64,000 nt of DNA from a virus, in the IMG/VR virus record IMGVR_UViG_3300017917_001336, positions 1-64,000 of that record; one strand, given 5' to 3'. The position numbers and the translations under genes were made by a program. Positions 34,628 to 49,170 of this stretch are shown in pieces. The notes under the pieces were generated by a model. That model saw nothing but the letters and a program-made list of their open reading frames with translations. It was not told the origin of the DNA and made no database searches. Within the stretch, counting starts at the first letter, position 1. Every line of letters begins with the position of its first letter.

Positions 34628-35770
34628 ATGGCACGTTATAATACGGTAATCCCAACAGCGACTGCGTCTGCTACAGCATCAATTGCATCTCCAGGTGCTG
34701 GTGCATTTACAAAACTTACAGGTACTAGCTATACTGTAACAATTGGAGATCCTGTACTATTTGCCGGTCAATCTCAAGTATTCTATAATGCTGCCAGCGG
34801 AACAATTACATTAACATTTACTAGTACTGGTGCAGGAACATTTATTGGCCCAGGCGGAAGCACTACAACAAGTCAAACAATTGGTAGTGGATCAACATTA
34901 ACAATTTATTCTGATGGTACTAACTGGGTATTAATGGGTTCAGGTGGCGGTCCTGTAACAGCAACAACAGGTTCATTTAGCGGCGACATAACACTTACTG
35001 GCGCAACACCTACAGTTAACTTTAACAATACTAATCCAACTATTGCTACAAACAGTTCAGGAAGTACAGCTACAGTTTTTAACACTAACGTTACTACGCT
35101 TAACATTGGCGGTGCAGCCACTACTATTGCAATGGGTGTAAATGCTGGTACAACTACATTAAAAGGTAAGCTATCGCTTGCTGGCTCAGGTAGTGGTACT
35201 GTTTCATTCCAGGCAGCAGCCGCGGCAGGTTCAGTAACTTATACATTACCGAGTGCCGATGCAGCTGCGTCTGGTTATGCACTAGTATCAAACGGTAGTG
35301 GTACATTAAGTTGGGCACAAACAGGTGCATCAGTAACTGACGACAGTTCATCAACAACTTTATATCCATTGTTGTTTAATGCTACTAGCGGAAATGCAAC
35401 AACTATCAGAGTATCAAGTACAAAATTATCGTTTAATGCTTCGACTGGTACAATGACAGCAACGGCATTGACTGCAACAACTATTACTGAAACTTCTAGT
35501 ATAGCACTAAAAGAAAATTTAAATCCAATTACTGGTGCACTTGATAAAGTTTTACAACTAGCAGCATATACATATGATCGTAAAGATGGATCTAGTAAAA
35601 ACGAAGCTGGTTTAATTGCTGAAGATGTAAACGAAATTATTCCAAACTTAGTTACATTAGATAAAGATGGCAAGCCTTACGGTATTCAATATACGAAACT
35701 TACAGCTTATCTTGTTGAAGCAGTTAAATCACTAAAGGAAGAGATTGATAGATTAAAAGGTAATAAGTAA
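34628..35770 (+). CDS. Short tail fibre with C-terminal S74 intramolecular chaperone
   Basis: 380 residues: a Gly/Ser/Thr-rich N-terminal domain (1-110, with SDGTNWVLMGSGGG), a shaft (115-285) with TYTLPSADAAASGYALVSN, and a C-terminal S74 chaperone (about 288-380). S74 domains help fibre trimers fold and then cut themselves off. The expected Ser/Lys pair with five-residue spacing is Ser290 and Lys295 (SSIALK); conserved AGLIAEDVNEIIP and the final heptad-like helix VEAVKSLKEEIDRLK are present. The usual Asp after the catalytic Ser is replaced by Ser. Shaft and chaperone are homologous to the end of the gene at 53601. It ends in TAATG overlapping the next start. Confidence 0.82.
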   Translation: MARYNTVIPTATASATASIASPGAGAFTKLTGTSYTVTIGDPVLFAGQSQVFYNAASGTITLTFTSTGAGTFIGPGGSTTTSQTIGSGSTLTIYSDGTNWVLMGSGGGPVTATTGSFSGDITLTGATPTVNFNNTNPTIATNSSGSTATVFNTNVTTLNIGGAATTIAMGVNAGTTTLKGKLSLAGSGSGTVSFQAAAAAGSVTYTLPSADAAASGYALVSNGSGTLSWAQTGASVTDDSSSTTLYPLLFNATSGNATTIRVSSTKLSFNASTGTMTATALTATTITETSSIALKENLNPITGALDKVLQLAAYTYDRKDGSSKNEAGLIAEDVNEIIPNLVTLDKDGKPYGIQYTKLTAYLVEAVKSLKEEIDRLKGNK

Positions 35771-37596
35771 TGGCAACGTTAAAAAATACCACAATTAGTG
35801 ATACTGGAACTTTAAAATTATCAACAGGTACGCAAGCACAGCGTCCAGCGATTGTTTCAAAAGTACAATCATTTTCAAGCCCTGGTACATGGACTGCACC
35901 TACTGGAGTAACTAGCGTTGAAGTGTTAGTTGTTGCCGGTGGTGGTGGTACTGGTTGGGACGTTGGTGGCGGAGGTGGCGGAGGTGGCGTACTATATGCT
36001 GCTAGTTTTCCAGTCACACCAGGAACACCATATCCAGTAGGCGTAGGTTCAGGTGGTGCTTCTGCATCAACTCCCGGAGCTAAAGGATCTAACGGAGGCA
36101 ACTCAAACTTTTCAACATTAACTGCTGTCGGCGGTGGTGGAGGAGGAGCATATCCCGGTAACGGTGCAGGTCTTCCCGGCGGATCTGGTGGTGGTGGAGG
36201 AGACCAATTTGCTTCGGGCGGTTCTGGAACACAATCTCCAAGCGGCCCAGCTACTGGATACGGATTTCCTGGAGGTGGTAGTGGACAAGCATGGGTAGGT
36301 GGTGGTGGCGGTGGCGCTGGCGGCGCTGGCCAAGGTGGCGGAGGAATTTTGCGCTATCAAGATTCAAGAGAAAGCAACTTATCAGGCGGCGACGGTTCTA
36401 TTGCATTGCCTGGAGGATGGACTGGTTACCCGGGATCAGGCGGCTTTTATGAAGGAACAGCAGCTTTAGGTGGGCCAGGATTAACATTTACAATTACTGG
36501 AACAGCAATTACATATTCAGGCGGCGGCCACGGGCAATCTGACGGTGGATTTATTCAACCAACAAACCCTAATCCAGGGTGGGGTGCAAACGGTTCTGGT
36601 GAAGGCGGCTCGTATTATCCCGGAAGTCCCGGTGTAGTTGTTTTAAGATATAGAGTTCCAACTGATACAGAAACTAGTGGATATGCTAGATTTAACACAA
36701 ATAGTAATAGTTTAGAAATGGACGGTGGTAGCGGTTTTTCATCGTTACAAGATGCAGCAGATTCACGCATTGTTAAATTTACCGAAGTTGGTAGTTGGAC
36801 TTGGACTGTTCCTGCAAACGTTTATAGCGTCAGAGTACTAGTAGTTGCTGGCGGTGGTGGCGGATGTGAACGTCACGGTGGTGGTGGAGGTGGAGGCGGT
36901 ATGCTTGAGCATTTTGGCTATCCAGTTACACCAGGCGCAAGTATCCCAGTAGTAGTTGGCGCAGGCGGTAAAGGTTTAGCTAAACCATCAGGAAATCCAC
37001 ACGGAAATCCAGGCTATCAAGGTTATCCAAGTAGTTTTGGAGATATTATTACTTATGGCGGTGGCGGTGGATTCAGTGACGGAAGTGTCCAAGGCGATCC
37101 AAGAGCCACTGGTGGCGGAGTCCAGCTCGCTGGCGGATCAGGTGGCGGCGGAAGCCATAACCCTGGTAACGTGTCTGGCGTAGGCATCTTAGGACAAGGA
37201 TTTCCAGGCGGTGGCGCATCTAGTTCGCAGACAAGCCGTGGCGGTACAGGCCCATATCCTGGTACAGGTAACCCACATGCAGGCGGTGGTGGCGGTGGCG
37301 CAGGTGGCGCAGGCGAACCATCGAGAAGCAACAGTGAAGCAGGTAATGGTGGCCCAGGACGAATGAGCGATATTACTGGACAACAAGTTTGGTACGCAGG
37401 CGGCGGCGGCGGATCTTGCCATAATAACACTACTCAAGGCGGTAAAGGTGGTATTGGTGGTGGTGGCGATGGTGGCGGCCCTGGATATCATCAACCGGGT
37501 GTTGACGGTCTTGGTGGTGGTGGCGGTGCAGCTAATAATGATCCAGCTCCTGTAGGTGGATATGGTGGCTCCGGAATTGTTATTATTCGTTATTAA
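35770..37596 (+). CDS. Glycine-rich adhesin-like tail protein (two Gly-rich domains)
   Basis: 608 residues. The N-terminal 25 residues (MATLKNTTISDTG, then TQAQRP) are shared with the genes at 40047 and 41889 and probably anchor the protein. Two Gly-rich domains follow, each opening with W-T-x-P-x-x-V-x-S-V-x-VLVVAGGGG (about 37-60 and 346-365) and closing with VVVLRY or IVIIRY. The poly-Gly tracts interspersed with Pro, Ala and aromatic residues resemble the polyglycine-II sandwich adhesins at fibre tips of some T4-like phages (gp38 type). That is established for those phages and inferred here. The start overlaps the upstream stop by 1 nt. GGT/GGC codons make this region visibly GC-richer than its neighbours. 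Confidence 0.78.
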   Translation: MATLKNTTISDTGTLKLSTGTQAQRPAIVSKVQSFSSPGTWTAPTGVTSVEVLVVAGGGGTGWDVGGGGGGGGVLYAASFPVTPGTPYPVGVGSGGASASTPGAKGSNGGNSNFSTLTAVGGGGGGAYPGNGAGLPGGSGGGGGDQFASGGSGTQSPSGPATGYGFPGGGSGQAWVGGGGGGAGGAGQGGGGILRYQDSRESNLSGGDGSIALPGGWTGYPGSGGFYEGTAALGGPGLTFTITGTAITYSGGGHGQSDGGFIQPTNPNPGWGANGSGEGGSYYPGSPGVVVLRYRVPTDTETSGYARFNTNSNSLEMDGGSGFSSLQDAADSRIVKFTEVGSWTWTVPANVYSVRVLVVAGGGGGCERHGGGGGGGGMLEHFGYPVTPGASIPVVVGAGGKGLAKPSGNPHGNPGYQGYPSSFGDIITYGGGGGFSDGSVQGDPRATGGGVQLAGGSGGGGSHNPGNVSGVGILGQGFPGGGASSSQTSRGGTGPYPGTGNPHAGGGGGGAGGAGEPSRSNSEAGNGGPGRMSDITGQQVWYAGGGGGSCHNNTTQGGKGGIGGGGDGGGPGYHQPGVDGLGGGGGAANNDPAPVGGYGGSGIVIIRY

Positions 37597-37604
37597 GGAT
37601 TTTT

Positions 37605-37904
37605 ATGGCAGAGCTAGAAAATAATCAACAAGAACAAACAGTAGTTAGTGTTCCCACTCTTCCTACAAAAGAAGAATTATTAGAAAAATGGGATTCTTCT
37701 TGGGGAGTTTATATATGGTACGGATCAATTCCAGAATTTTTGTTAAAATGGGGATTGTTAGGAAACCATGAAATTAGAGAACACACAGAATATGAGTATA
37801 TTGACACCGATCAAGATGGCACATATGAAGTAATGTTTACTACTAAGAATGTAGAGTTTAGTACAGATGAAGAATTTTCATCAAAAATTAAACAAGTTCG
37901 ATAA
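37605..37904 (+). CDS. Small acidic protein, unknown function
   Basis: 99 residues, acidic, with a Gln/Glu-rich N-terminus and a central aromatic stretch (SSWGVYIWYGSIPEFLLKWG at residues 31-50) followed by a Glu/Asp-rich C-terminus. No family recognised. It starts 9 nt after the Gly-rich adhesin gene with AAGGAT upstream, and is the last gene before a bidirectional terminator, so it is probably co-transcribed with the adhesin. A small fibre-assembly or adhesin-associated protein is possible, but nothing in the sequence proves it. Confidence 0.55.
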   Translation: MAELENNQQEQTVVSVPTLPTKEELLEKWDSSWGVYIWYGSIPEFLLKWGLLGNHEIREHTEYEYIDTDQDGTYEVMFTTKNVEFSTDEEFSSKIKQVR

Positions 37905-37917
37905 AATTACTACTAAT

Positions 37918-37944
37918 AAAAAAGCACCCTTAGGGTGCTTTTTT
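37918..37944. terminator. Bidirectional intrinsic terminator
   Basis: A perfect 12 bp inverted repeat, AAAAAAGCACCC / GGGTGCTTTTTT with a TTA loop, lies between converging transcription units: the plus-strand adhesin unit and the minus-strand halogenase operon. The A and T runs give a U-tract on either strand. The halogenase stop codon (37943-37945) is inside the T run. Confidence 0.92.
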
Positions 37945-39409
37945 ATTTTGTGTCTCTTATTACTGAAAGCATCATTTTGTGAGATATTTCTTTAGTTTCT
38001 TTTAAGAAATTTATCTCATGTGCTACAAGGTTATCAGCATGTTCTCTAATTAATGAATGTAACATCTGATACTCTTTCTTAATAGATTCTTGATCAAATA
38101 ATCCAAGCCCCTGCATTACTACAATAAAATTAGCTTCTGTAAATAATGCATATTGAGAAACATTATAAAAGTCTTCTTTGATTGGCAACTTATATCTCCA
38201 CTGCTCTAAATTAGATTTTAGGCTATCTGGAAGTTCAAGATTTTGTATATCTTTCCAAAACTGACTGTTATCTTTTTTAACAACGTAATGTAGCGCAATG
38301 AAATCTCTAATATTTTCCATAATGCTGGTTATTGATCTATTATAACTTTCAATTGTTTTTTCATCATAGTTTGCTAGTCTATGCATTAAAATAAATGCCT
38401 GTTGAATAGACGTGCCAATACTAGTTGCTTCTAGTGGCTCTACAAAACTTCCGCTAAGGCCGATTGCAACACAATTTTTAATCCATGCACGATCTAATGC
38501 ACCCGGATCAAATTTAAATTCTTTACCAATTTCAATCTCATGTCCTAGGTATTTTTCTGCTTCTGCCTTAGCTTGATCCTGCGTAATATAATCGCTGTCA
38601 TAGATATAACCATTTCCACCACGACCCCAAACAGGTATTCTAAACATCCAACCGTAATCCATTGCTTTTGCTAAAGTCCACATATTATAGTTTTCTGTAT
38701 CCGGTGTTGGAAATGCTATAGCAGCCTTCATTTTTAAATACTTTCCGTAACTTATCCACTTTGCTCCTAACTTAGACATTAGAATACGTTTAAATCCGGT
38801 ACTATCGATGTAAAAATCATAGTTGTAATCTTGTTTGTTTCCTTTAAGAGTACCAATACTACCATCTTCAGCTAAAGTAACATCAATAATTTCGTCATCG
38901 ATAAAATTAATCCCCAAAGATTTACCAGTTTTAGTTAAAAATTCATTTAATTTATGTGTGTTAAAATGATACTGACTAGCAGGTGATTCTTTTGGATTAT
39001 TTAAAAACCATGTATTAACTTGACTTCTCCAATATCGTTCACTTGACATTGCTGTAGCTGGTTCGCCTTCAGCAATTAATTTGCCGTACACATATCTATA
39101 TTGACTGGCTCGACCGTCGTAAGGGACTTGTACGCTGTGCATATAAGGATCAGGAGTCCAATCTCTAAACATAATACCTACTTTGTATGTAGCATCGCAT
39201 TCTTTGATTAATGTGTATTGGTCAATTTCTAAAAAATCCATAAACTCTTTCCAGTGTTCAGTACTTCCTTCACCGACACCAACTATCCCAATAGCTTTAG
39301 AACATATTAAATCAATATGTAAATCTGGGAGACGTTTTTTTAAAACTAATGCAGCTACTAGTCCAGCGGTACCGCCGCCGACTACTGCTAATCTATTAAC
39401 ATGTTTCAT
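37943..39409 (-). CDS. Flavin-dependent (tryptophan-type) halogenase
   Basis: 488 residues, the usual length for FAD-dependent tryptophan halogenases. The N-terminal dinucleotide fold is VVGGGTAG (residues 9-16). Lys76 in CDATYKVGI matches the lysine that guides hypohalous acid in PrnA and RebH. GWMFRIP at 253-259 is in the place of the W-x-W-x-I-P halogenase motif; both Trp positions are altered but the IP is kept. Glu327 in EPLEATSIG matches the conserved catalytic glutamate. Such enzymes use reduced FAD, oxygen and halide to chlorinate or brominate an indole or related ring. It overlaps the upstream oxygenase gene by ATGA, forming a two-gene minus-strand operon inside a plus-strand adhesin cluster. 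The substrate is unknown, and no flavin reductase is nearby. Confidence 0.85.
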   Translation of the reverse strand: MKHVNRLAVVGGGTAGLVAALVLKKRLPDLHIDLICSKAIGIVGVGEGSTEHWKEFMDFLEIDQYTLIKECDATYKVGIMFRDWTPDPYMHSVQVPYDGRASQYRYVYGKLIAEGEPATAMSSERYWRSQVNTWFLNNPKESPASQYHFNTHKLNEFLTKTGKSLGINFIDDEIIDVTLAEDGSIGTLKGNKQDYNYDFYIDSTGFKRILMSKLGAKWISYGKYLKMKAAIAFPTPDTENYNMWTLAKAMDYGWMFRIPVWGRGGNGYIYDSDYITQDQAKAEAEKYLGHEIEIGKEFKFDPGALDRAWIKNCVAIGLSGSFVEPLEATSIGTSIQQAFILMHRLANYDEKTIESYNRSITSIMENIRDFIALHYVVKKDNSQFWKDIQNLELPDSLKSNLEQWRYKLPIKEDFYNVSQYALFTEANFIVVMQGLGLFDQESIKKEYQMLHSLIREHADNLVAHEINFLKETKEISHKMMLSVIRDTK

Positions 39410-39981
39410 ACGAAATTATACCATCCTGTAATTATATATTTTTCTTCAGTTGGACTAATTACACCTCTATGTGTATGTGTCCAGTCTGCAGGCCAAATTA
39501 ATGTTTTTCCTTGCTCAGCTGTTGTAATCAAATTTTGATGGAAAAATTCAGTTCCTCCACCATTACTTACTGTGTTTAAGTACGTCATAAAAACTAAATG
39601 CCTTGTACTGTTTATAGGATCGGGCGATCCTCTTTCAGTATGATATGCAACATATCCTTCACCTGGTTTATAATGCTGTATTTTCACTCGTTCTCTAATA
39701 GTAAATGGACTATAAGAATTGCAATATGGATATTGCTGTATATAAGTTTCTAATACTTGTTGCAATTCATACAAATAATTTGATAGCGCAGGATCTAAGA
39801 TATCATACCTACATTCTGTGCTAGATTTTTCTAAAGAATTTACAAGACCATCGACTTTACCTTGCCAAATAGTTCCTGCACGTTTTGAAGGATCATTTTT
39901 AAATAATTCTATTAAATCTTCGCAAGTTTGGGGAGAAACAACCCCTTGTCCTATAAACGTATTCATACATTTAGTTAGCAC
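39406..39981 (-). CDS. Prolyl-4-hydroxylase-like 2OG-Fe(II) oxygenase
   Basis: 191 residues with a complete double-stranded beta-helix iron site: His114-Thr-Glu116 (YHTERG), distal His171 (WTHTHRG) and Lys181, the 2-oxoglutarate-binding lysine expected of P4H-type enzymes (EEKYIITGW). An acidic Glu replaces the more common Asp in the HxD pair. Hydroxylation of a proline or another side chain is the family expectation. The open frame begins with GTG at 39981; an alternative ATG lies at 39966. It is translationally coupled to the halogenase (4 nt overlap), and both lie between Gly/Pro-rich adhesin genes. Those adhesins are attractive but unproven substrates. Confidence 0.82.
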   Translation of the reverse strand: MLTKCMNTFIGQGVVSPQTCEDLIELFKNDPSKRAGTIWQGKVDGLVNSLEKSSTECRYDILDPALSNYLYELQQVLETYIQQYPYCNSYSPFTIRERVKIQHYKPGEGYVAYHTERGSPDPINSTRHLVFMTYLNTVSNGGGTEFFHQNLITTAEQGKTLIWPADWTHTHRGVISPTEEKYIITGWYNFV

Positions 39982-40002
39982 TTTTTAACTTTCTTGCTTT
40001 AA

Positions 40003-40010
40003 TATTTGGC
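40003..40010 (-). promoter_or_regulatory. Possible minus-strand late promoter (GCCAAATA)
   Basis: Read on the minus strand, this octamer is GCCAAATA, one change from the GCTAAATA late boxes of this window. Initiation would fall near 39997, 16 nt before the GTG start of the oxygenase-halogenase operon. It overlaps the plus-strand box at 40009 in a near-palindrome. Confidence 0.4.
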
Positions 40011-40016
40011 TAAATA
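40009..40016 (+). promoter_or_regulatory. T4-type late promoter (GCTAAATA)
   Basis: GCTAAATAAT matches the late box seen at 2359 and 9121. It lies 31 nt before the ATG of the second Gly-rich adhesin, in the divergent intergenic region after the minus-strand oxygenase gene. Confidence 0.68.
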
Positions 40017-40046
40017 ATAGAAATAATCGTAAAGAGATTAGAATTC

Positions 40047-41873
40047 ATGGCTACACTAAAGAATACAACTATTAATGATACAGGGTTTATACAATTACCC
40101 AAAGGAACAACAGCCCAGCGCGGCATTTACACCTTTACGGGCCCAGGATCATGGACTGCACCAGCGGGTGTAACTAGTGTTTCAGTACTAGTAGTAGGCG
40201 GCGGAGGCGCTGGTGGACAAGATACCGCCGGTGGAGGAGGTGGAGGAGGCGTTGTTTTCCACAATAGCTTTCCAGTTACACCAGGCACATCTTATCCTAT
40301 TACAGTTGGCGCAGGCGGAGTTCGTCCTGACGGCGGCCCAACAGGAGCAAGAGGAAATAATGGAAGTCCTTCAACATTTAGTACACTAACAGCACTAGGT
40401 GGCGGTGGTGGAACAGGTAGTGCATCGGGCGGTCTAGCTGCTCAACCAGGTGGTTCGGGTGGTGGAGGCGGAAACGGCTTGGCCGCTGGATCTGCAACAC
40501 AACCAGGTCAATCAAATCCAGGCGCAACAGTAAATGCTGGTTTTGCCGGAGAAGCAGCTGCATCAGGCTATGGCGCAGGTGGCGGCGGAGCAGGTGAAGC
40601 TGGCGGTACAAAAGGTATTATGCGAGGCGGTGACGGCTTAAGATTTTTTGGCCAATACTGGGGCGGCGGTGGCGGCGGTACAATAAATGGCGCAGGCGGC
40701 CTTGGCGGAGCGGGTGGTGGCGGTTTTAACCTACCAGGTACTAGCTTCCAAGGTCCAAGAAATAACGGATTAGCAAACACCGGCGGCGGTGGTTCTGCAC
40801 ATTATGGATCATGGAATGGAGCAGGTAATGGTGGTTCTGGTATTGTTATTGTTTGTACAGACCAGGTAGGTAGTGTACGATATAATACAGATAACAATTT
40901 AGTTGAATATTTTGACGGAACAGAGTGGCAAAACTTTAAGTGTAGAGGCACCGGCGGATCTATACAAACTATCACAATCCACTCATTTAAAACAGTAGGA
41001 AGTCATTCATTTACAGCACCTCCAGGTGTTGACCGTGTATGGGCACTAGTTGTCGCTGGTGGTGGAGGTGGAGGCACACGTAATTCCGGTGGTGGAGGTG
41101 GAGGCACTGACGGCGGTTCAGGTGGCGGTGCTGGAGGAATGTTAGAAGGAACATATCCAGTTACACCAGGAACAACTTATTCAATTACAGTTGGTGCTGG
41201 CGGTGCTGGTGGCGGTCGAGCTGGTTCACCTAACCCAGGAGGTCAAAGTCCAGGCGCAAAAGGCGGAGATTCTGTATTTGCAACAGCAACAGCCATTGGC
41301 GGCGGATTTGGTGGCTGTGGCCCAGGCGGGAATCCCGGAGGCCCAGGCGGCAGTTCAGGTGGTGCAGGTGGCGGCGGCGGATCAGCAACATCAACTCCTG
41401 GTGCTGCACAAACTCCAAGCGGTGGCCTAACAGGATACGGAAACGCTGGCGCAGGCAATCCTCAAGTTGCTCCATATACAGGTTCAGGTGGTGGCGGTGC
41501 TGGCTCAGGCGGAACAGCTGGCGGTTCTCAAAACAAAGGTTGGGGCGGATACGGAAGATTAAGTTATATTACAGGTACTGCTGTATTGTACGCTGCAGGC
41601 GGTGGTGGTGGTGGTTCTGGACCTACTTTCTCGTGGGGTGGCACAGGCGGTGCTCAAATGCGTGGTGGTCATAACACTACAGCCGGCGGCATTGGCGGAG
41701 CAGGTGGCGGAACTATGCAAAGTTATATTAGAACAGGTTATAACGAAGCTGACGGAGATAACGGAGCAACAAACACAGGTTCAGGCGGTGGTGGTGGTGC
41801 AGGAAATCCTTGGTCTACTCCAGGCGGCTATGGTGGAGCAGGCGGCCCAGGAATTGTAATCATTCGCTACTAA
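40047..41873 (+). CDS. Glycine-rich adhesin-like tail protein (two Gly-rich domains)
   Basis: 608 residues, exactly as long as its paralogue at 35770. It begins MATLKNTTINDTGFIQLPKG and then carries two Gly-rich domains, the first opening with WTAPAGVTSVSVLVVGGGG (about 35-54), the second with FTAPPGVDRVWALVVAGGGG (about 327-346). Between them is the fibre module GSVRYNTDNNLVEYFDGTEW near 277-296. The second domain ends in the shared IVIIRY. Several Pro-Gly-rich stretches such as GPGGNPGGPGGSSGG look collagen-like or polyglycine-II-like. It has its own late promoter. A weak GAGATTAG lies before the start. Likely a host-recognition tip protein. Confidence 0.76.
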   Translation: MATLKNTTINDTGFIQLPKGTTAQRGIYTFTGPGSWTAPAGVTSVSVLVVGGGGAGGQDTAGGGGGGGVVFHNSFPVTPGTSYPITVGAGGVRPDGGPTGARGNNGSPSTFSTLTALGGGGGTGSASGGLAAQPGGSGGGGGNGLAAGSATQPGQSNPGATVNAGFAGEAAASGYGAGGGGAGEAGGTKGIMRGGDGLRFFGQYWGGGGGGTINGAGGLGGAGGGGFNLPGTSFQGPRNNGLANTGGGGSAHYGSWNGAGNGGSGIVIVCTDQVGSVRYNTDNNLVEYFDGTEWQNFKCRGTGGSIQTITIHSFKTVGSHSFTAPPGVDRVWALVVAGGGGGGTRNSGGGGGGTDGGSGGGAGGMLEGTYPVTPGTTYSITVGAGGAGGGRAGSPNPGGQSPGAKGGDSVFATATAIGGGFGGCGPGGNPGGPGGSSGGAGGGGGSATSTPGAAQTPSGGLTGYGNAGAGNPQVAPYTGSGGGGAGSGGTAGGSQNKGWGGYGRLSYITGTAVLYAAGGGGGGSGPTFSWGGTGGAQMRGGHNTTAGGIGGAGGGTMQSYIRTGYNEADGDNGATNTGSGGGGGAGNPWSTPGGYGGAGGPGIVIIRY

Positions 41874-41888
41874 TAGGATAAACACAGT

Positions 41889-42944
41889 ATGGCAACTTTA
41901 AAAAATTCGATAATTAGCGACACAGGTTTTTTTGATTTACCTGGAGGTACAACAGCTCAACGTCCGGCTAGCCCAGTATCGGGAATGCTTCGTTTTAACA
42001 CAGATTTAAATTGTGCAGAATTTTACAACGGAACAACCTGGGTTCAAATTGAAAATCAAACAGTTAACTCAACGGGTGAAATTACTAAAACAGTACTACA
42101 CGTTTTTAATCAAGTAGGCAGTTATACATTTACACCACCAGTTGGTGTTGATGTAGTTCAAGTATTAGTAGTTGCTGGCGGTGGCGGCGGTGGTTCACGT
42201 AACGGTGGCGCAAACGGTGGCGGTACTGACGGGGGTGCAGGCGGCGGCGCTGGCGGCTTTGTTGAAGTAGGTTACTATCCAGTAACAGGCGGAGTAGGTA
42301 TTCCTGTTGTTGTGGGTCGAGGTGGCGTTGGCGGTTCTAGACCAGCTGTACCGGGACAAAGCCCAGGCGAAAACGGAACAAACTCATCATTTGGAGCACT
42401 AATTGCAATCGGTGGTGGAGGCGGAGGATGCGGGCCAGGCGGCCCAGCTGCTGACGGAAAACCGGGCGGTTCAGGTGGCGGACGTGGAGGCGGCGGCTCT
42501 CCAAATACCGGCGTTACCGGAACAGGTACACAAAAATCACAACCAACTGCATCAGGCGGCGGCACACGTGGCTGGGGATACCCAGGCGGTTATAATCCAA
42601 ACGTGTCCAACTATTCTGGTGCTGGTGGTGGCGGTGCCGGTGGCGCAGGATATGACGGTGGTTCTAGTAGAACAGCACCAGGCGGCCAAGGACGTATGAG
42701 TATGATTACTGGATATCAAGTTTGGTATGCAGGTGGTGGCGGCGGAGCCAGTGGATCAAGTGCTAGCCACGCAGGTCAAGGTGGTCTTGGCGGCGGCGGC
42801 CGCGGAAACGGATATAGTGCCAGCGGAGATCCGGGCGGATTTGCATCTGGCGGTGGTGGTGGTGGCGGATCTGGAGGTAACTCTGGTGACGGCGCAGGCT
42901 ACGGCGGCGATGGCGGTCCAGGAATTGTTATTGTTAGATATTAA
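41889..42944 (+). CDS. Glycine-rich adhesin-like tail protein (single Gly-rich domain)
   Basis: 351 residues, third member of the Gly-rich set. The N-terminus MATLKNSIISDTGFFDLPGG is shared, followed by the module QRPASPVSGMLRFNTDLN ... EFYNGTTW (about 26-55), then one Gly-rich domain that opens with FTPPVGVDVVQVLVVAGGGG (about 83-102) and ends GPGIVIVRY. It looks like a one-domain version of the two 608-residue paralogues. It follows the second paralogue by 15 nt with AGGATAA upstream. Role as adhesin is inferred from composition and layout. Confidence 0.74.
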   Translation: MATLKNSIISDTGFFDLPGGTTAQRPASPVSGMLRFNTDLNCAEFYNGTTWVQIENQTVNSTGEITKTVLHVFNQVGSYTFTPPVGVDVVQVLVVAGGGGGGSRNGGANGGGTDGGAGGGAGGFVEVGYYPVTGGVGIPVVVGRGGVGGSRPAVPGQSPGENGTNSSFGALIAIGGGGGGCGPGGPAADGKPGGSGGGRGGGGSPNTGVTGTGTQKSQPTASGGGTRGWGYPGGYNPNVSNYSGAGGGGAGGAGYDGGSSRTAPGGQGRMSMITGYQVWYAGGGGGASGSSASHAGQGGLGGGGRGNGYSASGDPGGFASGGGGGGGSGGNSGDGAGYGGDGGPGIVIVRY

Positions 42945-42953
42945 GGAATTGAA

Positions 42954-43160
42954 ATGTTACCGTTAACAACAGAAGATGCAGCTCAACTAAATCTACATTA
43001 TCAAGGATATACTATTGATTCTAGTAAAGGTCCTCATTTAGCTACAAACGAACTAGTAGCTAAATGCCACACAGAAAAATTACCTAGCGGAAATGTTGCA
43101 CATTTGTACTATGATCTAGCAGCTGATCATGTATATGTGTATGACGTTACACCAGGTTAA
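42954..43160 (+). CDS. Small hypothetical protein
   Basis: 68 residues, no recognised family. It starts 9 nt after the last Gly-rich adhesin with AAGGAATTG upstream and is probably part of that unit. The C-terminal half contains alternating strands (GNVAHLYYDLAADHVYVYDV). Its TAA stop overlaps the TAA stop of the converging minus-strand oxygenase through a shared TTAA, so the two genes abut without any intergenic DNA. Confidence 0.5.
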   Translation: MLPLTTEDAAQLNLHYQGYTIDSSKGPHLATNELVAKCHTEKLPSGNVAHLYYDLAADHVYVYDVTPG

Positions 43161-43801
43161 CTGTAACCATACAGTTCAAACTGTCTTTCAGAACTTAACT
43201 TTCTAGTATTTGAATTTAAACCTAACATTGGCCGAGTGTCGTATTTTAATTCAGCTCTCGGCCCGTTTGCACGAACATAGAACATAAATGCGTTAATTTG
43301 TTCTCGCCCGTGGTATGGGGTTCTCCAGTGAGGAAGCTCATGTCCTCTGTACATAATAGCATCTCCTGGTTCTTGAACTATTTCCATAACAGTTTTATCT
43401 TTGTCTTCCATGTATAATGGCCAAGGTGTTGTAGTTTCGTCCACTTCTATACACAACGACACACTAAATTCTGATGCAGATCTATCAATGTGTCTTAACA
43501 TCTCTGCACCATTTGAATATATTCTAGCATATGAATATGTAGGAAATACAGGCTCCTTAAGATAATTTTCTACAACTGATTTAATTAAACTATCTGAAAG
43601 AGCTTCAAAACATAATGGACTGTACCATGAAAAACTACGATTTACCATTTCGTCATGCCACGGAAACTCATTTTCAGTAGTAGGTCTTTGAACAGCATAC
43701 GCAAGCTCTCTAGCTAATTTAAATTCTCTTGCTAAAATTTTACACGCATCTTTATGTACAGCATTTTTTAAAATAGCGTACCCATCTTTTTCAAAACTCA
43801 T
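43157..43801 (-). CDS. 2OG-Fe(II) oxygenase
   Basis: 214 residues with a full facial triad: His104-Ile-Asp106 (MLRHIDRS), distal His158 (ELPHWR), and Arg166 as the likely 2-oxoglutarate-binding residue. The pattern PTYSYARIY ... EPGDAIMYRGHELPHWR is shared with the protein at 47034, so the two are paralogues about 4 kb apart on opposite strands. This type is common in marine T4-like phages and its substrate has not been settled to my knowledge. It overlaps the carbamoyltransferase stop by ATGA and is translated after it, so the two probably act in one pathway. Confidence 0.8.
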   Translation of the reverse strand: MSFEKDGYAILKNAVHKDACKILAREFKLARELAYAVQRPTTENEFPWHDEMVNRSFSWYSPLCFEALSDSLIKSVVENYLKEPVFPTYSYARIYSNGAEMLRHIDRSASEFSVSLCIEVDETTTPWPLYMEDKDKTVMEIVQEPGDAIMYRGHELPHWRTPYHGREQINAFMFYVRANGPRAELKYDTRPMLGLNSNTRKLSSERQFELYGYS

Positions 43802-45501
43802 AGAGAATCCTTTTTTATTAATAGATTAAATTCTGGCAAATACAAATAATTAATTTCAGATCTGCGAATAGTACCTAGCGCATCATCGATAGTTTCTACT
43901 ATACAATCACCAGCTAAATTAAAACTAGTATTGAACAGTATAGGCACGCCTGTTAGTTTATAAAACTCATTAATTAAGTTGTAAAAATGTTTATTATCAT
44001 CATGTTTTAAAGTTTGTACTCGACAAGTGCCATCAACATGTGTTATAGCTGGTATTTCTGATTGTTTATTTTTATGAACATTAACAGCAAACATCATGTA
44101 AGGACTTTCATGCAACCCCCTTAAGTCAAACCAATCATTTGCATATTCATGCAATACAGTACCAGCAAATGGCCTAAACCATTCTCTTTGTTTAACAGTA
44201 TTAACATGATCCTTTCCCACTGGATCTCTAGGATCATATAGGATGCTACGATTTCCTAATGCTCTAGGGCCAGCCTCGCTTCTTCCTTGATACATTGCTA
44301 CAATATTTTTATTAGCAATGATTGTTGCTACATCACTCGGCGTAACAACTGTATAAGTTTCCTTAACCAATTTAGAAATTATATCATTGACAGAATAACT
44401 ATACTCTAATCCATAGTATAATGATTTTTGAGGACGCTTTGTAGTATCTTTTGTTTTTTCGTGCCAGATTAACTTAGCCGCTCCAATGCTAGTGCCGGCA
44501 TCTGATGAAATTGGTTCAACATATATTTTTATGTCTGGCGGCAGTTCATTTAAAAATTCATAGTTAGCTACACAATTTAAAAAGTAACCACCAGATAAAC
44601 ATACATTCTTACACCCAGTAAGTTTTACCATTTTGAGGATATATGACTTAATTTCGTTTTGAGTTTGAGTTTGCAAACTGTAAGCAAAATCAGCTTGTGT
44701 TTGAAAATCTGCATTTATTAAGTGCGGAGCTAACTTTGTATTAACTTCGACTGTTCTTAAATCGTTTTGTTTAGGTTTAAATAACTCTGTATTCACAAAA
44801 CCTTGTTTAATAATAGCCGGATTCCGATCATCGTTCCTTCCATAGGAACTCATACCCATAACTTTACCAGCATCTAACTCGTGAAATCCAAATTGTTTTG
44901 ATGTCTTTTGAAACGCCAATGCTTCACTGATTGCATTTGTAATTTTAACATTATCGTCAACTATAACGTTAGCTTCAAACGGCACTGACACTACTTTATC
45001 AAGTTGAACAAAATTAGCAGGATAATTAGCAATAAAAGTTGTACTAGATTCTCTACCGTACGAACCTTGCAAAAATCTTTGGTCATTTATGTAGTAATCA
45101 CTGCCCATTCCGTCTTTAATAATACAAAGAGCTTGGTCAAATCCTGAATTATAAAATGCACACGCAGCATGTAACTTGTGATGATGTGCCCATAGGTCAT
45201 AAAAATTATAATCTTTATTATAGAAATCTTTGTTTAATCTTGATATAAAGGTTGTATAGACATTGTCTGTAGTAAAATTTTCTACAGGAACTGTTGGCCC
45301 AACACCAGCTACACAAATATCGTTAACATGATCTACATAGTCGGGTAATTTTGCCAGTGTTTGAAACACATACGCATCGTATTTTATGTTAGACAACCGT
45401 TCGTTTTCTAAATGGAATACCATCTCGCCATTTTTTAAAACGGTTACAGCAGAATTGTGTACTCTGCTTATTCCTACAGTAATGTGGTCGTGTTTGCTCA
45501 T
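43798..45501 (-). CDS. Carbamoyltransferase (NodU/TobZ/HypF-C family)
   Basis: 567 residues, the standard size for O-carbamoyltransferases that move a carbamoyl group from carbamoyl phosphate, through carbamoyl-AMP, to a hydroxyl. The N-terminal Kae1-like ATPase-fold domain has the metal-site run HHHKLH (106-111), GKVMGMSSYG (212-221) and LSGGYFLNCVAN (302-313). The C-terminal YrdC-like domain has GRSEAGPRALGNRSI (406-420) and REWFRPFA (439-446). It is translated ahead of a 2OG oxygenase with a 4 nt overlap; an oxygenase could create the hydroxyl that is then carbamoylated. Phage members of this family have been reported to carbamoylate 5-hydroxymethylcytosine in DNA, from memory; small-molecule or glycan acceptors are alternatives. 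Confidence 0.9.
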   Translation of the reverse strand: MSKHDHITVGISRVHNSAVTVLKNGEMVFHLENERLSNIKYDAYVFQTLAKLPDYVDHVNDICVAGVGPTVPVENFTTDNVYTTFISRLNKDFYNKDYNFYDLWAHHHKLHAACAFYNSGFDQALCIIKDGMGSDYYINDQRFLQGSYGRESSTTFIANYPANFVQLDKVVSVPFEANVIVDDNVKITNAISEALAFQKTSKQFGFHELDAGKVMGMSSYGRNDDRNPAIIKQGFVNTELFKPKQNDLRTVEVNTKLAPHLINADFQTQADFAYSLQTQTQNEIKSYILKMVKLTGCKNVCLSGGYFLNCVANYEFLNELPPDIKIYVEPISSDAGTSIGAAKLIWHEKTKDTTKRPQKSLYYGLEYSYSVNDIISKLVKETYTVVTPSDVATIIANKNIVAMYQGRSEAGPRALGNRSILYDPRDPVGKDHVNTVKQREWFRPFAGTVLHEYANDWFDLRGLHESPYMMFAVNVHKNKQSEIPAITHVDGTCRVQTLKHDDNKHFYNLINEFYKLTGVPILFNTSFNLAGDCIVETIDDALGTIRRSEINYLYLPEFNLLIKKDSL

Positions 45502-45547
45502 GATTAACTAGTTATCTTCAAAACTTTCAAGCCCTAAAATATTGTAC

Positions 45548-45555
45548 TATAAATA
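45548..45555 (+). promoter_or_regulatory. T4-type late promoter (TATAAATA)
   Basis: A perfect match to the T4 late consensus, followed by C. It lies between the divergent carbamoyltransferase and oxygenase genes. Initiation near 45561 would leave a leader of about 20 nt with AAAGAG before the ATG at 45581. Confidence 0.82.
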
Positions 45556-45580
45556 CTTGCCACCGTAAAGAGAAATGACT

Positions 45581-46237
45581 ATGTTCACTAATATTGAAAA
45601 ATCGCCCGAAAACTCAAATTTTGCATCAAAAGATTTAATTGATAAAACAATAGAGTCAAAAGACCAACAGCGTGTTGATCTTTATCAACCAAAAGCACCT
45701 GAAGGGTTGTTATCTATTGCTACCGCTACATTATTCAATAATGAAGAATGTAAAAAAATTATTGATAGTTGCATTGGCGAGCTTTGGACACCAGTTAAAG
45801 TGTACGGATCTGGAAACATACATCGAGCATCAATGCAACGATTAAGAGGAAATTTATCAGAGCATCCTTTAAATTTATTTCGAGAGGCAATTGTATCTGC
45901 TAACGCAGAAATATACAACTTTAGTCTTGTAGGCATGATTGACTTAGATTATCCTCAAGTAGCTCGATATAGTAAAGGTGATTTCTATGATCTTCATACT
46001 GAAATTAATCCTATGACTCTAACAAGAAAACTTTCGTTTCTTGTTATGTTAAACGATCCATCAGAGTACGAGGGCGGTGAAATTGAATTTTTAAATACAG
46101 AATTAAAACACGAAGAAACTTCACAAGTTGGTACTATGCTTATCTTTCCTAGTTTTTTAACTTATAGAATTAAGCCTGTAAAGAAAGGAAGTAGATATGT
46201 AGTTACTGGAAGCATTCATGGAGATTCGTTTAAATGA
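45581..46237 (+). CDS. 2OG-Fe(II) oxygenase-like protein with altered distal ligand
   Basis: 218 residues from the ATG at 45581, chosen because AAAGAG lies 8 nt before it; an in-frame ATG at 45575 is only 2 nt from that site. The fold pattern matches its downstream neighbour: His139-Thr-Glu141 (YDLHTE), the GGEIEF turn, and GSRYVV carrying the 2OG-binding Arg205. The distal iron ligand is not His: where the neighbour has FPSHVYHQVTPV, this protein has FPSFLTYRIKPV, placing Tyr195 at the His position. It may be a pseudo-enzyme, a partner subunit, or use Tyr or another residue. It overlaps the next gene by ATGA. Confidence 0.75.
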   Translation: MFTNIEKSPENSNFASKDLIDKTIESKDQQRVDLYQPKAPEGLLSIATATLFNNEECKKIIDSCIGELWTPVKVYGSGNIHRASMQRLRGNLSEHPLNLFREAIVSANAEIYNFSLVGMIDLDYPQVARYSKGDFYDLHTEINPMTLTRKLSFLVMLNDPSEYEGGEIEFLNTELKHEETSQVGTMLIFPSFLTYRIKPVKKGSRYVVTGSIHGDSFK

Positions 46238-47037
46238 TATTAGAAAATAATTATTTTTGGTTTAAATCTGCATTAAGTCCCGAGGTATGTAATAAAATTA
46301 TCGACTTGGGAGAAGAAAAACTAGCAGAATTAGAGCGACAGTTTGGTGAAAGAGCTACGGAAGCTACTACATTTGATCACAAACAAAAGAATGGGTCTAT
46401 CGGTGATGAGCCTGCTGGTAAATTATCTGCAGGTGCATTATCAAGAGAAGGTAGATTAAAAAAAGGTATTAAAGAAGAAGATGTTTACATTCGTGATACA
46501 AAAGTATCGTGGTTAGACGATCGCTGGATTTACGACTTAATACATCCGTACATCCACGAAGCAAATTATCGAGCAGGTTGGAATTTTGAATGGGATTGGT
46601 CAGAATCCTGTCAATTTACAAAGTATGGTATCGATCAGTTTTATGGTTGGCATACTGACTCTGGTTGGGAACCTTATACACGATTTGACCCCGAAGTTGA
46701 CGAAATTGTTAGATATGCCGACGGCACTCCTATGTTAGATGCTTTTAACAACGTCATACCAAAAAATAGACATAAGATTACAGATGAAAATAAAATTGGG
46801 AAGATTAGAAAAATTAGTGTTACTATTAATTTGACCGACCCAAAAAACTATGACGGCGGAAACTTAAAATTTGATTTTGGACCACACGCTGAAAAAAGAT
46901 TTCATACATGTACTGAAATTAGACCAAAGGGTAGTATAATTGTTTTTCCGTCACATGTATATCATCAAGTAACCCCAGTAACTAGAGGTACACGATACAG
47001 TCTAGTTTTATGGAATTTAGGAAAGCCATTCAGATGA
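46234..47037 (+). CDS. 2OG-Fe(II) oxygenase (PKHD/P4H-like)
   Basis: 267 residues with all expected residues: His140-Thr-Asp142 (YGWHTDSG), distal His244 (SHVYHQVTPV) and Arg254 (RGTRYSLVLW) for 2-oxoglutarate. The GGNLKFDF and GSIIVFPS segments are typical of the prolyl/lysyl-hydroxylase branch. An Asp/Glu-rich insert lies between the HxD and the core strands (about 150-190). Proteins of this form are very common in cyanophage-like genomes. It is coupled at both ends by ATGA overlaps with flanking oxygenase genes, so the run is one operon. Substrate unknown. Confidence 0.83.
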   Translation: MILENNYFWFKSALSPEVCNKIIDLGEEKLAELERQFGERATEATTFDHKQKNGSIGDEPAGKLSAGALSREGRLKKGIKEEDVYIRDTKVSWLDDRWIYDLIHPYIHEANYRAGWNFEWDWSESCQFTKYGIDQFYGWHTDSGWEPYTRFDPEVDEIVRYADGTPMLDAFNNVIPKNRHKITDENKIGKIRKISVTINLTDPKNYDGGNLKFDFGPHAEKRFHTCTEIRPKGSIIVFPSHVYHQVTPVTRGTRYSLVLWNLGKPFR

Positions 47038-47693
47038 GCAACGCAGAATATTTTAAAGAACATCATTATACAGTTATTAAAGGTATTATACCTCAAGAAA
47101 TTTGTAACGTAGCTACTAAGTATGCGTTATTAAAAATGGAAACTGAGTTTAATCCTGAAGATGTAAGAACTGGACAAATTCCAGGAACACATTCTATCTA
47201 CAGCGATACACTAATGGAAACATTAATGCATTTTATGTTGCCACACATGGAAGCAGCAACAGGATTAGAATTATGTCCAACATATACTTACTACAGAGTT
47301 TACAAAGCAGGTGATGAATTGCTTAGACATAAAGATAGAGAAAGTTGTGAGATATCAACAACTGTATGTTTTGGATTTAATTATCTAAGTGATGATTCCA
47401 ACTATCGTTGGCCTATATTTGTAGACGAAAAATCTGTTTCTGTTTCTACTAAAAACGGATTTGTATCAGCAAACAATCCAGGAGTTTCAGTTAGCATGGA
47501 ACCTGGAGATGCTGTTGTATATCGAGGTTGCGAAGTAGAGCATTGGCGAGAAAAATTTGATGTAAAAGAAGGTAGTTATCACGTACAAGCATTCTTACAT
47601 TATATTGATAAGAATGGTCCGTACTATCCTGAATTTGCGTTTGACGGTCGCAAAGGCATTGGATATAAAAAAGATTACACTTACACAAAATAA
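47034..47693 (+). CDS. 2OG-Fe(II) oxygenase
   Basis: 219 residues. The ATG at 47034 is chosen over an upstream in-frame ATG at 47010 because it gives the ATGA coupling used by its neighbours and has AGGAAAG about 8 nt upstream. His99-Lys-Asp101 (LLRHKDRE) and distal His170 (EVEHWRE) give the iron site. The blocks PTYTYYRVYKAGDELLRH and EPGDAVVYRGCEVEHWRE are shared with the minus-strand oxygenase at 43157. The sequence between the metal ligands is longer here, with a Ser/Val-rich loop near 130-150. Its stop overlaps the next start by 1 nt. Confidence 0.8.
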   Translation: MSNAEYFKEHHYTVIKGIIPQEICNVATKYALLKMETEFNPEDVRTGQIPGTHSIYSDTLMETLMHFMLPHMEAATGLELCPTYTYYRVYKAGDELLRHKDRESCEISTTVCFGFNYLSDDSNYRWPIFVDEKSVSVSTKNGFVSANNPGVSVSMEPGDAVVYRGCEVEHWREKFDVKEGSYHVQAFLHYIDKNGPYYPEFAFDGRKGIGYKKDYTYTK

Positions 47694-48361
47694 TGGCACA
47701 TTTGTACACTGATTTTATTTTTTGTAAAAATAATTTTTTTAAAAATCCAAAACGTGTATTGGAGTTTGCTAACTCTTTAGATTTTTCATTTAAAAATAGT
47801 GCGTTCCCTGGAACAAGGACAGAAAACTTAGCATTATCTAAAGATCCGGTTTCTAAAGAATTTGCACAATTTTTTGCAAGAAAACTTGTAAATGAAGTTT
47901 ATACTAACATTATTGACTTAGATATTGATATTCGTTTTCACAAGTACCCTAATTTACATGAAGATGCTGAATTAGACATTGGATGGGTACATCAAGATGA
48001 TAATGAATTATTAGCAGGTCTTGTTTATCTAAATGAAGATGTGGATAATTTTGATTCAGGCACATCGTTTTACAGTTCCCCTAATAACTTTGATTATCCA
48101 GGACAAATTAGATTAGATTTTAATTCTAATAACGCTGACATCAATTTAGAAAATTATAAAACTTGCTTGAAAAACCATACAGGACAATTTAAAGAAAATG
48201 CAAGAGTAGGTAATTTATATAATCGATTAATAACATATGATTCAAATGTTTTCCATAGACCCAATTCTTATAATACAGGCGACGGAAACAATAGACTCAT
48301 ATTAATTTTTGTAGTATCAAACTACTCATATAGAAATCGTGAATATGAGATTCACGAGTGA
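47693..48361 (+). CDS. 2OG-oxygenase-like protein (DUF6445-like)
   Basis: 222 residues with an HxD-like pair His100-Gln-Asp102 (GWVHQDDN), a downstream GTSFY turn, and a distal His188 (NVFHRPNSY) followed by Arg201 (NNRLILIFVV). The spacing and strand order fit the double-stranded beta-helix fold, although the motif context differs from the P4H group and is nearer to DUF6445-type proteins. It is the fourth consecutive gene of this fold in the operon and overlaps its neighbour by TAATG. Activity is inferred from the motifs only. Substrate unknown. Confidence 0.68.
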   Translation: MAHLYTDFIFCKNNFFKNPKRVLEFANSLDFSFKNSAFPGTRTENLALSKDPVSKEFAQFFARKLVNEVYTNIIDLDIDIRFHKYPNLHEDAELDIGWVHQDDNELLAGLVYLNEDVDNFDSGTSFYSSPNNFDYPGQIRLDFNSNNADINLENYKTCLKNHTGQFKENARVGNLYNRLITYDSNVFHRPNSYNTGDGNNRLILIFVVSNYSYRNREYEIHE

Positions 48362-48391
48362 TAAGTAAACTTAAAACATTAGGAGATATAA

Positions 48392-48724
48392 ATGTCAGAA
48401 AGACCACAAGTTGAACCGTTTTTTGATTACGGATCAGTAAACGACACACACAAAGAAGCTGCTAAAGCATGTGCTGTAATCTGTGAAGAATGCGGAATTC
48501 CAGAAATTGGCCAAATCATCAAACAGAGATTTGCAATTGAAGAACCTCCAACATACGATTTACATGCATCAGAATTTTATAAAGTTGCAACAGAAAATAA
48601 AATTTCTGTAACAGCTGGCGGTTATATTATGGAAAACGGTATGAAATATCCGTACTGTAATGTTTCAGCTGATATTAGAACATTAGAAAAGTTTTTAGAA
48701 ACTTTAAGATCTCAAAAAGATTAA
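48392..48724 (+). CDS. Hypothetical protein, 110 aa
   Basis: A soluble 110-residue protein with a strong AGGAG 7 nt before its start and no recognised family. It contains a Cys-x-x-Cys-like pair in VICEECGIPEIG near residue 30 and a helical C-terminus. Gene order places it at the end of the plus-strand oxygenase run, 30 nt after it, but it may be expressed separately. Its stop overlaps that of the converging Nudix gene through a shared TTAA. Confidence 0.55.
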   Translation: MSERPQVEPFFDYGSVNDTHKEAAKACAVICEECGIPEIGQIIKQRFAIEEPPTYDLHASEFYKVATENKISVTAGGYIMENGMKYPYCNVSADIRTLEKFLETLRSQKD

Positions 48725-49170
48725 ATTAAATCTACAATATCAAATACAGTTTGTAGTTTAGTTCTAATTGCTTTATTTGAGAAACTATTTCGAAGCCCCT
48801 GATGTAGGGGCTTCGGTGCATAATCAATAGTAGCCCACACCCACCCCATATGTTCTTCACTTAGTGTAGGAATAAATTCGTCTTCTATGACGCACAGATA
48901 AGTGTGAAAATTAAAAACTTTGTCGTTACTAACAAATGTTTCTAGCGGAATAGTTTTGATAATATTTGGTACTTTGCCAATTTCTTCAGTAACTTCTCTT
49001 TGAAGTCCTTGCCACGGATTTTCATTTTGTAAATTAGTACCGCCAACAAGCCCCCAAGTCCCGGTGTGTTTTCCATGAGCTTTTTGTAGTAGTAAAATTC
49101 TTCGTGTAGATTTAGCGTAGAACAATGCTCCGCTACAAACTATACGATCTTTTACAACTCCAGTCTCCAT
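48721..49170 (-). CDS. Nudix hydrolase
   Basis: 149 residues with a complete Nudix box at residues 44-66: Gly44, five residues, Glu50, seven residues, then REVTEEIGK (58-66). Nudix enzymes cleave nucleoside diphosphates linked to another moiety, for example modified dNTPs, NADH, ADP-ribose or mRNA caps. The box alone does not decide which. The start lies inside the 3' end of gp15 by 19 nt and has AGG 4 nt upstream, so it is the third gene of the gp14-gp15 minus-strand unit. Its placement next to oxygenases could mean cleaning of oxidised or modified nucleotides, a speculation. Confidence 0.87.
   Translation of the reverse strand: METGVVKDRIVCSGALFYAKSTRRILLLQKAHGKHTGTWGLVGGTNLQNENPWQGLQREVTEEIGKVPNIIKTIPLETFVSNDKVFNFHTYLCVIEDEFIPTLSEEHMGWVWATIDYAPKPLHQGLRNSFSNKAIRTKLQTVFDIVDLI

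Follow-up and report, generated by a model that had tools for sequence, protein, structure and literature searches.

Tailoring-enzyme cassettes paired with glycine-rich tail-tip adhesins in a marine T4-like phage, and a loop barcode that accompanies the carbamoyltransferase

Genes for halogenases, carbamoyltransferases and 2-oxoglutarate (2OG) oxygenases are widespread in marine T4-like phages, where they are filed as auxiliary metabolic genes and their native substrate is not known. What might such enzymes act on when they stand among the genes of a tail tip? The question is raised by bases 1-64000 (hereafter the window) of the 147,567-bp IMG/VR virus record IMGVR_UViG_3300017917_001336, in which three glycine-rich genes of family Gly_rich_2 (PF21722) lie together with a halogenase (HAL), a carbamoyltransferase (CARB), six 2OG-oxygenase-like proteins (OX1 to OX6) and a Nudix protein. 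A first-pass annotation of this DNA had proposed modification of virion adhesins, DNA base hypermodification, or alteration of a host metabolite or surface polymer as possible roles; its gene content, gene order and strands were recovered throughout, with all named genes at the same coordinates, by open reading frame (ORF) calls and family scans. We regard modification of the cognate adhesin tips by the enzyme cassettes as the most likely role and, judging from sequence comparison, give it about even chances.

The locus is best explained as the tail-tip, i.e., host-recognition, module of a T4-like phage of the Kyanoviridae type. Family annotation covered part of the genome, including the proteins encoded between 34 and 53 kb, and identified T4-type head and tail genes in the window (major head protein, baseplate wedge, gp13 and gp15). 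By gene content the nearest named relatives are Kyanoviridae, e.g., Pelagibacter phage HTVC008M and marine cyanophages; a megablast comparison of the region with phage records gave no match. The two-domain tail-tip adhesin GlyA (35770..37596, + strand; PF21722 2.6e-33, phrog_2295 5.7e-74, tail family phrog_863), the two-domain GlyB (40047..41873, +; PF21722 6.5e-35) and the single-domain GlyC (41889..42944, +; PF21722 4.2e-15), which is convergent with the CARB-OX2 unit, contain 32-34% glycine. An AlphaFold2 model of GlyC (pLDDT 77) matched the Bxb1 tail tip (9d93, 2.9e-6) and the Pam3 fibre (7ypx, 3.2e-6) in Foldseek, with query-normalised TM-scores below 0.4, and an adhesin search with the GlyC alignment returned weak matches only, which were attributed to Gly-rich patterns. 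In Pam3 the Gly-rich domain consists of six loops; their glycine stem is conserved, and the distal ends vary and were proposed to bind the receptor (PMC9608196).

Are the enzymes linked to the adhesins beyond this one genome? Relatives of the halogenase, the carbamoyltransferase and OX4 were fetched, with the terminase and the gp41-type helicase of the same genome as controls, and loci flanked on either side by 3 kb or more were counted, each 95% cluster contributing a single locus; ORFs of at least 200 aa with at least 20% Gly were classed as Gly-rich. Such an ORF lay within 3 kb of CARB in 19/30 loci (17 on the opposite strand, 13 within 300 bp), of OX4 in 6/8 and of HAL in 3/9, as compared with 0/20 for the terminase, 1/44 for the helicase and 1/64 for the pooled controls; the corresponding Fisher p-values against the pooled controls (3e-11, 1e-6 and 5e-3) overstate the case because the contigs are kin. 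An earlier, looser count, in which short-flanked loci were included when matching, placed OX4 within 2 kb of a Gly-rich ORF in 31/33 loci. The order Gly-rich gene, OX4, a ~234-aa 2OG-FeII_Oxy_5 gene and OX5 is conserved in dozens of marine phage contigs. In the window the third oxygenase of that order is displaced to 60073..60741 (+), past further fibre genes, and encodes a 2OG-FeII_Oxy_5 protein (PF13759 3.1e-15) of the same family as the ~234-aa gene of the relatives (PF13759 1.4e-13). The closest relative (our loci L007/L026) keeps the gene order of the window: S74 fibre, GlyA, HAL-OX1, GlyB, GlyC, CARB, OX3, OX4, OX5. HAL and CARB behave as accessory cassettes, usually on the strand opposite to the adhesin, and CARB is usually convergent with the Gly-rich gene. 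The co-occurrence survey suggested in the first-pass annotation thus gave a mixed result: the pairing is enriched, some Gly-rich adhesins have no enzymes nearby (Melnitz, L343-L351), and some halogenases or carbamoyltransferases have no Gly-rich gene close to them (P-SSM2, L061-L091).

Alignment of the CARB-linked adhesins revealed that their first glycine loop (loop 1; e.g., TRNAGPNSGGTDGG) contains an insert, which was fixed as the regular expression [TSN]R[NDH].G.{2,6}[GS][TS]DG (in shorthand, [ST]RN-x-G...G[ST]DG). By homology, this barcode would sit at the distal end of loop 1, the putative receptor-binding tip. It occurs in GlyC (SRNGGANGGGTDGG, 42195-42236, +) and in the second domain of GlyB (TRNSGGGGGGTDGG, 41076-41117, +). 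GlyA, beside the halogenase, is without it, and in its second domain loop 1 has the sequence CERHGGGG (36865-36888, +); paralogues in L376 show a similar contrast within one genome. Of the distinct Gly-rich ORFs, 18/25 of those lying no more than 2.5 kb from a window-type CARB matched the fixed expression vs 0/91 others, and among the new loci of a later CARB scan 9/22 near CARB did so vs 0/28 others. When ORFs were clustered at 80% identity, 14/22 clusters beside an opposite-strand CARB (at least 45% identity) carried it vs 0/117 elsewhere. In a reverse test, all viral contigs were scanned by the DNA pattern GTDGG.G.GAGG, blind to CARB; CARB was present on 27/27 contigs with the fixed expression and on 36/38 with a wider Asn-containing form defined post hoc, and the two contigs without it (L417, L441) both end inside the adhesin gene. 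None of the 29 contigs without the insert had CARB in the locus, one having it elsewhere on an 88-kb record. The relaxed form G[TS]DGG...GAGG, which had seemed exclusive to CARB (24/33 vs 0/106), was rejected after the DNA-pattern scan found CARB-less, OX4-linked adhesins with a short GTDGG loop; because this short loop occurs without CARB, the Asn-containing insert is the informative part. The cultured phages S-SSM5, S-CAM8, P-RSM4 and MS29 carry both CARB and a barcoded adhesin.

The pairing of barcode and CARB is tighter than gene adjacency alone. This bears on a hitch-hiking explanation, according to which the region is a tail-fibre exchange hotspot where enzymes and adhesin alleles are swapped jointly without a functional link. 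Gene maps do differ strongly among relatives in this region and adhesin alleles are partly clade-structured, as such an explanation would have it, but the pairing survives wide divergence and opposite arrangements, being mostly convergent and yet co-directional in L376, L377, L381 and L382, where a 41-45% CARB is likewise accompanied by the wider-form loop; moreover, the two cut contigs are the only barcode contigs without CARB. We therefore consider joint swapping without function distinctly unlikely. As far as the alignments indicate, the signal is that of a loop type co-inherited with an enzyme across several backbones and two gene arrangements, the correction for phylogeny not being full.

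CARB (43798..45501, - strand; PF16861 2.7e-61 and PF02543 4e-21) is a NodU/TobZ-type O-carbamoyltransferase whose relatives in the PDB are 7xb6, GdmN and TobZ, and its residues H107, H111, D130 and D334 are invariant in the alignment of relatives; we take these to be the counterparts of the metal-binding set H114, H118, D137 and D338 of TobZ. Its operon partner OX2 (43157..43801, -; phrog_2954 6.9e-51) is a 2OG oxygenase-like protein. No relative above 32% identity was found in clearly cellular contigs, and the window-type CARB clade is, by this sequence comparison, phage-specific. Recent uptake of CARB from a host was rejected, as outside phages relatives above 32% were seen only in short, ~4-kb contigs of metagenome-assembled genomes. 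L061-L091 represent a second carbamoyltransferase clade; it lies in a large enzyme cluster that has no Gly-rich genes and is probably a relative of the cluster which Iyer et al. described in jumbo cyanophages. In addition, L093:2324-3268 (+; genome ~85824-86768) encodes a carbamoyltransferase N-domain (PF02543) that stands alone, the C-terminal domain being absent. This gene immediately precedes the one for the gp41-type DnaB helicase, and many relatives have similar genes upstream of the helicase.

Enzymes of the TobZ/GdmN/NodU family transfer carbamoyl groups to hydroxyls of sugars or natural products, and this speaks for the main rival, which is part of the host-directed reading: the enzymes would alter the host surface molecule bound by the adhesin, thereby keeping progeny from re-adsorbing to infected cells and cell debris or excluding competitors. 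Distant phage homologues of CARB do stand among sugar enzymes in HTVC008M and S-SSM7. Against such editing of the receptor, family scans found no glycosyltransferase or nucleotide-sugar enzyme in 34-53 kb, the electron-rich aromatic on which flavin-dependent halogenases depend would be unusual in a surface glycan, and a lytic phage would need early expression, while the sole recognisable promoter element is of late type. We hold it to be unlikely, albeit the strongest of the alternatives.

The 2OG oxygenases supply the core of the module. OX4 (46234..47037, +; PF13640 7.7e-13) and OX5 (47010..47693, +; phrog_2954) show invariant H140, D142, H244 and R254, and H107, D109 and H178, respectively, in the alignments. 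The OX4 profile matched PKHD hydroxylases such as PiuC (3e-8) and prolyl-4-hydroxylases weakly (0.019). OX2 and OX5, which have HxD...H in common, gave no Pfam match, and OX5 was chosen for structure prediction: the best PDB matches of its AlphaFold2 model (pLDDT 86.9) in Foldseek were 2OG oxygenases, with the Pseudomonas putida prolyl-4-hydroxylase at the top (4j25, E 4.2e-9), an enzyme solved alone (4j25) and with EF-Tu (4iw3), both of which match the model. The label 'ferrochelatase' attached to phrog_2954 was rejected for OX2 and OX5, since the modelled OX5 appears to have the double-stranded beta-helix fold of 2OG oxygenases. OX1 (39406..39981, -; PF13640 2.4e-08, phrog_61 7.5e-37; HxE...H...K) overlaps the HAL unit, and OX6 (47693..48361, +; PF20043 5e-9; phrog_1644 'minor coat protein') is a DUF6445 protein with an HxD...H...R pattern read by eye. 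The Hx[DE]...H triad and the basic 2OG-binding residue are present in OX1, OX2, OX4, OX5 and OX6. In OX3 (45575..46237, +; PF13640 5.4e-12) the facial triad is incomplete, the distal iron His being replaced by Tyr in the window and by a Phe/Ser region in L007 in the alignment.

Hypermodification of DNA was also considered, base hydroxylation being the activity of TET/JBP-type 2OG oxygenases. The profile of OX2/OX5 met a Tet-like dioxygenase at an insignificant E of 0.51, the 147,567-bp record contains no match to the thymidylate-synthase family PF00303, the OX5 model is nearest to prolyl hydroxylase and natural-product oxygenases, and the linkage is to tail tips, not to replication genes (the gp41 control). 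This second suggestion of the first-pass annotation found no support, and we consider it hardly credible.

HAL (37943..39409, -) is a flavin-dependent, Trp-type halogenase that matches PF04820 at 4.7e-94, with 316 bits against a cut-off of 21. Its FAD motif GxGxxG reads GGGTAG, and K76 and E327, presumably the counterparts of K79 and E346 of PrnA, are invariant in the alignment of relatives; active halogenases have this catalytic Lys/Glu pair. The WxWxIP position reads WMFRIP in the clade of the window and WMWRIP in other relatives. Two or three halogenase paralogues occur in tandem in L008, L011 and L019. VirX1 of a cyanophage (PDB 6qgm) is, like HAL, a phage PF04820 flavin-dependent halogenase but a distant one (E 1.1e-42), Trp 6-halogenase-type enzymes such as 6nsd being nearer (7e-63). 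In work by Gkotsi and colleagues from 2019, VirX1 reportedly iodinated diverse substrates in vitro.

Where an enzyme family follows one particular loop of a virion tip protein, it is simplest to suppose that this loop is its substrate. The loop offers Ser/Thr and Asn, and the 2OG oxygenases of the cassette could add to the available hydroxyls. We infer as follows which substrate is used, in what order the reactions occur, which residues are modified and how host binding is affected. Late in infection, the 2OG oxygenases (the core enzymes OX4 and OX5, and also OX1, OX2 and OX6) would hydroxylate side chains in the distal loops of the adhesins. CARB, with its partner OX2, would then O-carbamoylate loop 1 of GlyB and GlyC at a hydroxyl group; candidate acceptors are the Ser/Thr of G[ST]DG, the Ser/Thr that precedes RN, and an Asn that has been hydroxylated. 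HAL with OX1 would halogenate GlyA at an aromatic residue or one like it. The outcome would be virion tips with a receptor-binding chemistry beyond the 20 amino acids. The more general proposition, that adhesins and enzymes form exchangeable cassettes in which the loop sequence of the tip specifies the enzyme, yielding hydroxylated, carbamoylated or halogenated receptor-binding tips by a logic resembling that of ribosomally synthesized and post-translationally modified peptides (RiPPs) but applied to a structural viral protein, is put forward tentatively, at somewhat less than even chances. If the enzymes do decorate the adhesin, the long-standing question of the roles of phage halogenases and of the many phage 2OG oxygenases would be answered directly, and host recognition would use a non-standard chemistry invisible to sequence-based host prediction. 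The barcode shows which peptides should be sought, and the pair is present in existing isolates.

The timing of expression had been argued in the first-pass annotation from T4-type late promoters before these units, which proved mostly unsupported. The exact T4-type late-promoter element TATAAATA is found at 45548..45555 (+), 27 nt before OX3, as the sole copy in the window, and it is depleted there (1 seen vs 8.9 expected by chance). The relaxed form NATAAATA is promoter-like genome-wide, 16/24 sites being at most 60 nt upstream of an ORF (8-60 nt). It is absent before the HAL-OX1 unit, the CARB-OX2 unit, GlyA and GlyC, and upstream of GlyB only TAGAAATA is seen. As NATAAATA is ORF-upstream and TATAAATA is depleted, the late-promoter consensus may differ from that of T4, and late promoters are weak evidence of timing. 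Adhesin modification nevertheless stands as the best supported of the three initial readings through gene pairing and the loop barcode, its promoter argument being weak.

Several points weigh against this reading. The basis of the evidence is genomic in all its parts (linkage, catalytic residues and co-occurrence of loop and CARB), late-promoter support is confined to one unit, and the oxygenase of that unit, OX3, is possibly inactive to judge from its triad. The kinship of the contigs affects the linkage statistics as stated, some 2OG oxygenases and halogenases of these families lie far from adhesins, and the halogenase-adhesin link is the weaker one, the RH loop occurring only in the window, L007 and L011, three closely related loci, all beside the halogenase. 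The short GTDGG loop without CARB means that the acceptor cannot simply be that Thr. With the loop masked, barcoded adhesins are still more alike on average (57% vs 50% for GlyC, with an exception in L051, 51% vs 55%), so that co-inheritance accounts for part of the barcode signal. Lastly, loop and enzyme could co-vary since both fit one receptor, and enzymes editing that receptor would predict linkage and barcode equally.

Directly upstream of the adhesin cluster lie two giant S/T-rich fibre-like ORFs (14825-24127 and 24167-34231, +; 3100 and 3354 aa). They are followed by a fibre protein (34628..35770, +) that has a Peptidase_S74 intramolecular chaperone at its C-terminus (PF13884 2.5e-11) and precedes GlyA, and gene maps show that this pair is kept in L007, L027 and L039. 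Between GlyA and HAL, a 99-aa protein without family match (37605..37904, +) has a 36% homologue in L007. The membership of the Nudix hydrolase (48721..49170, -; PF00293 9e-14) in the module is doubtful, because its gene adjoins gp15 not only here but also in relatives (L010-L012). Elsewhere in the genome, L095:7265-8464 (-; genome ~129765-130964) encodes an enzyme of the class I/II aminotransferase fold dependent on pyridoxal phosphate (PF00155 4.7e-69), possibly of the aminolevulinate-synthase/BioF type.

How does the locus compare with known systems? The first-pass annotation knew of no described phage system with this combination, which was wrong, since a cluster of this kind has been published for S-SSM6a (Iyer et al. 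2021; PMC7824862) and related sets exist in HTVC008M and S-SSM5. Taken singly, the enzymes are common among Kyanoviridae. Sullivan et al. 2010 listed prnA and carbamoyltransferase in cyanomyoviruses, together with many 2OG oxygenases, and suggested modulation of 2OG (PMC3037559); the 10-gene cluster of S-SSM6a, with carbamoyltransferases, a halogenase and 2OG-Fe(II) oxygenases, was read as decoration of a secondary metabolite or capsule (PMC7824862). Both proposals favour small-molecule tailoring or auxiliary metabolism, i.e., a halogenated, hydroxylated and carbamoylated metabolite or a shift of host 2-oxoglutarate. For the window, this explanation is very unlikely in our judgement, as 34-53 kb has no scaffold-making gene, the CARB clade appears phage-specific, and the adhesin linkage and loop barcode would be left unexplained.

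The cluster of S-SSM6a and S-SSM7 resembles the window in joining carbamoyltransferases, an amino-acid-type halogenase and 2OG oxygenases, and in S-SSM7, which has the same set, it likewise lies between tail-fibre genes and gp13-gp15. It differs in containing a heptose kinase, a phosphoheptose isomerase and an epimerase, in a CARB of another clade (41%) and in having no Gly-rich adhesin (at least 20% Gly) beside it; the scan of the proteins encoded in 34-53 kb of the window found neither such sugar-processing enzymes nor the HemK-like methylase, which accompany the halogenase and carbamoyltransferases in the S-SSM6a type. In HTVC008M, genes for four 2OG oxygenases and a phrog_2954 protein separate a Gly-rich gene from gp13, and the terminase subunit genes flank a halogenase-oxygenase pair. 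Nearest to the window are the cassettes of S-SSM5, S-CAM8, P-RSM4 and MS29, in which CARB (55%) is convergent with a barcoded Gly-rich gene beside phrog_2954 and 2OG oxygenase genes; unlike the window they are without halogenase, and they are annotated as auxiliary genes only. The carbamoyltransferase of MS29 has been listed as PyrBI aspartate carbamoyltransferase (PMC10436341), and the gene (OQ504980.1, L464:4980-6611) is of NodU/TobZ type and 55% identical to CARB.

The tips of Pam3 gp24 and S16 gp38 likewise consist of a Gly-rich loop stack whose variable distal ends are proposed to bind the receptor (PMC9608196), but tailoring enzymes linked to them, as in the window, were not found in the literature searched, nor was a paper connecting these enzymes with adhesins. 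In mycobacteriophages, glycosyltransferases are suggested to act on the phage's own virion proteins (PMC11256854), a case that concerns glycosylation of capsid or tail proteins, in contrast to the hydroxylated, carbamoylated or halogenated adhesin loop proposed here. What is new here is the conserved block of Gly-rich gene, OX4 and OX5, the usual convergence of CARB with the adhesin, and the loop barcode.

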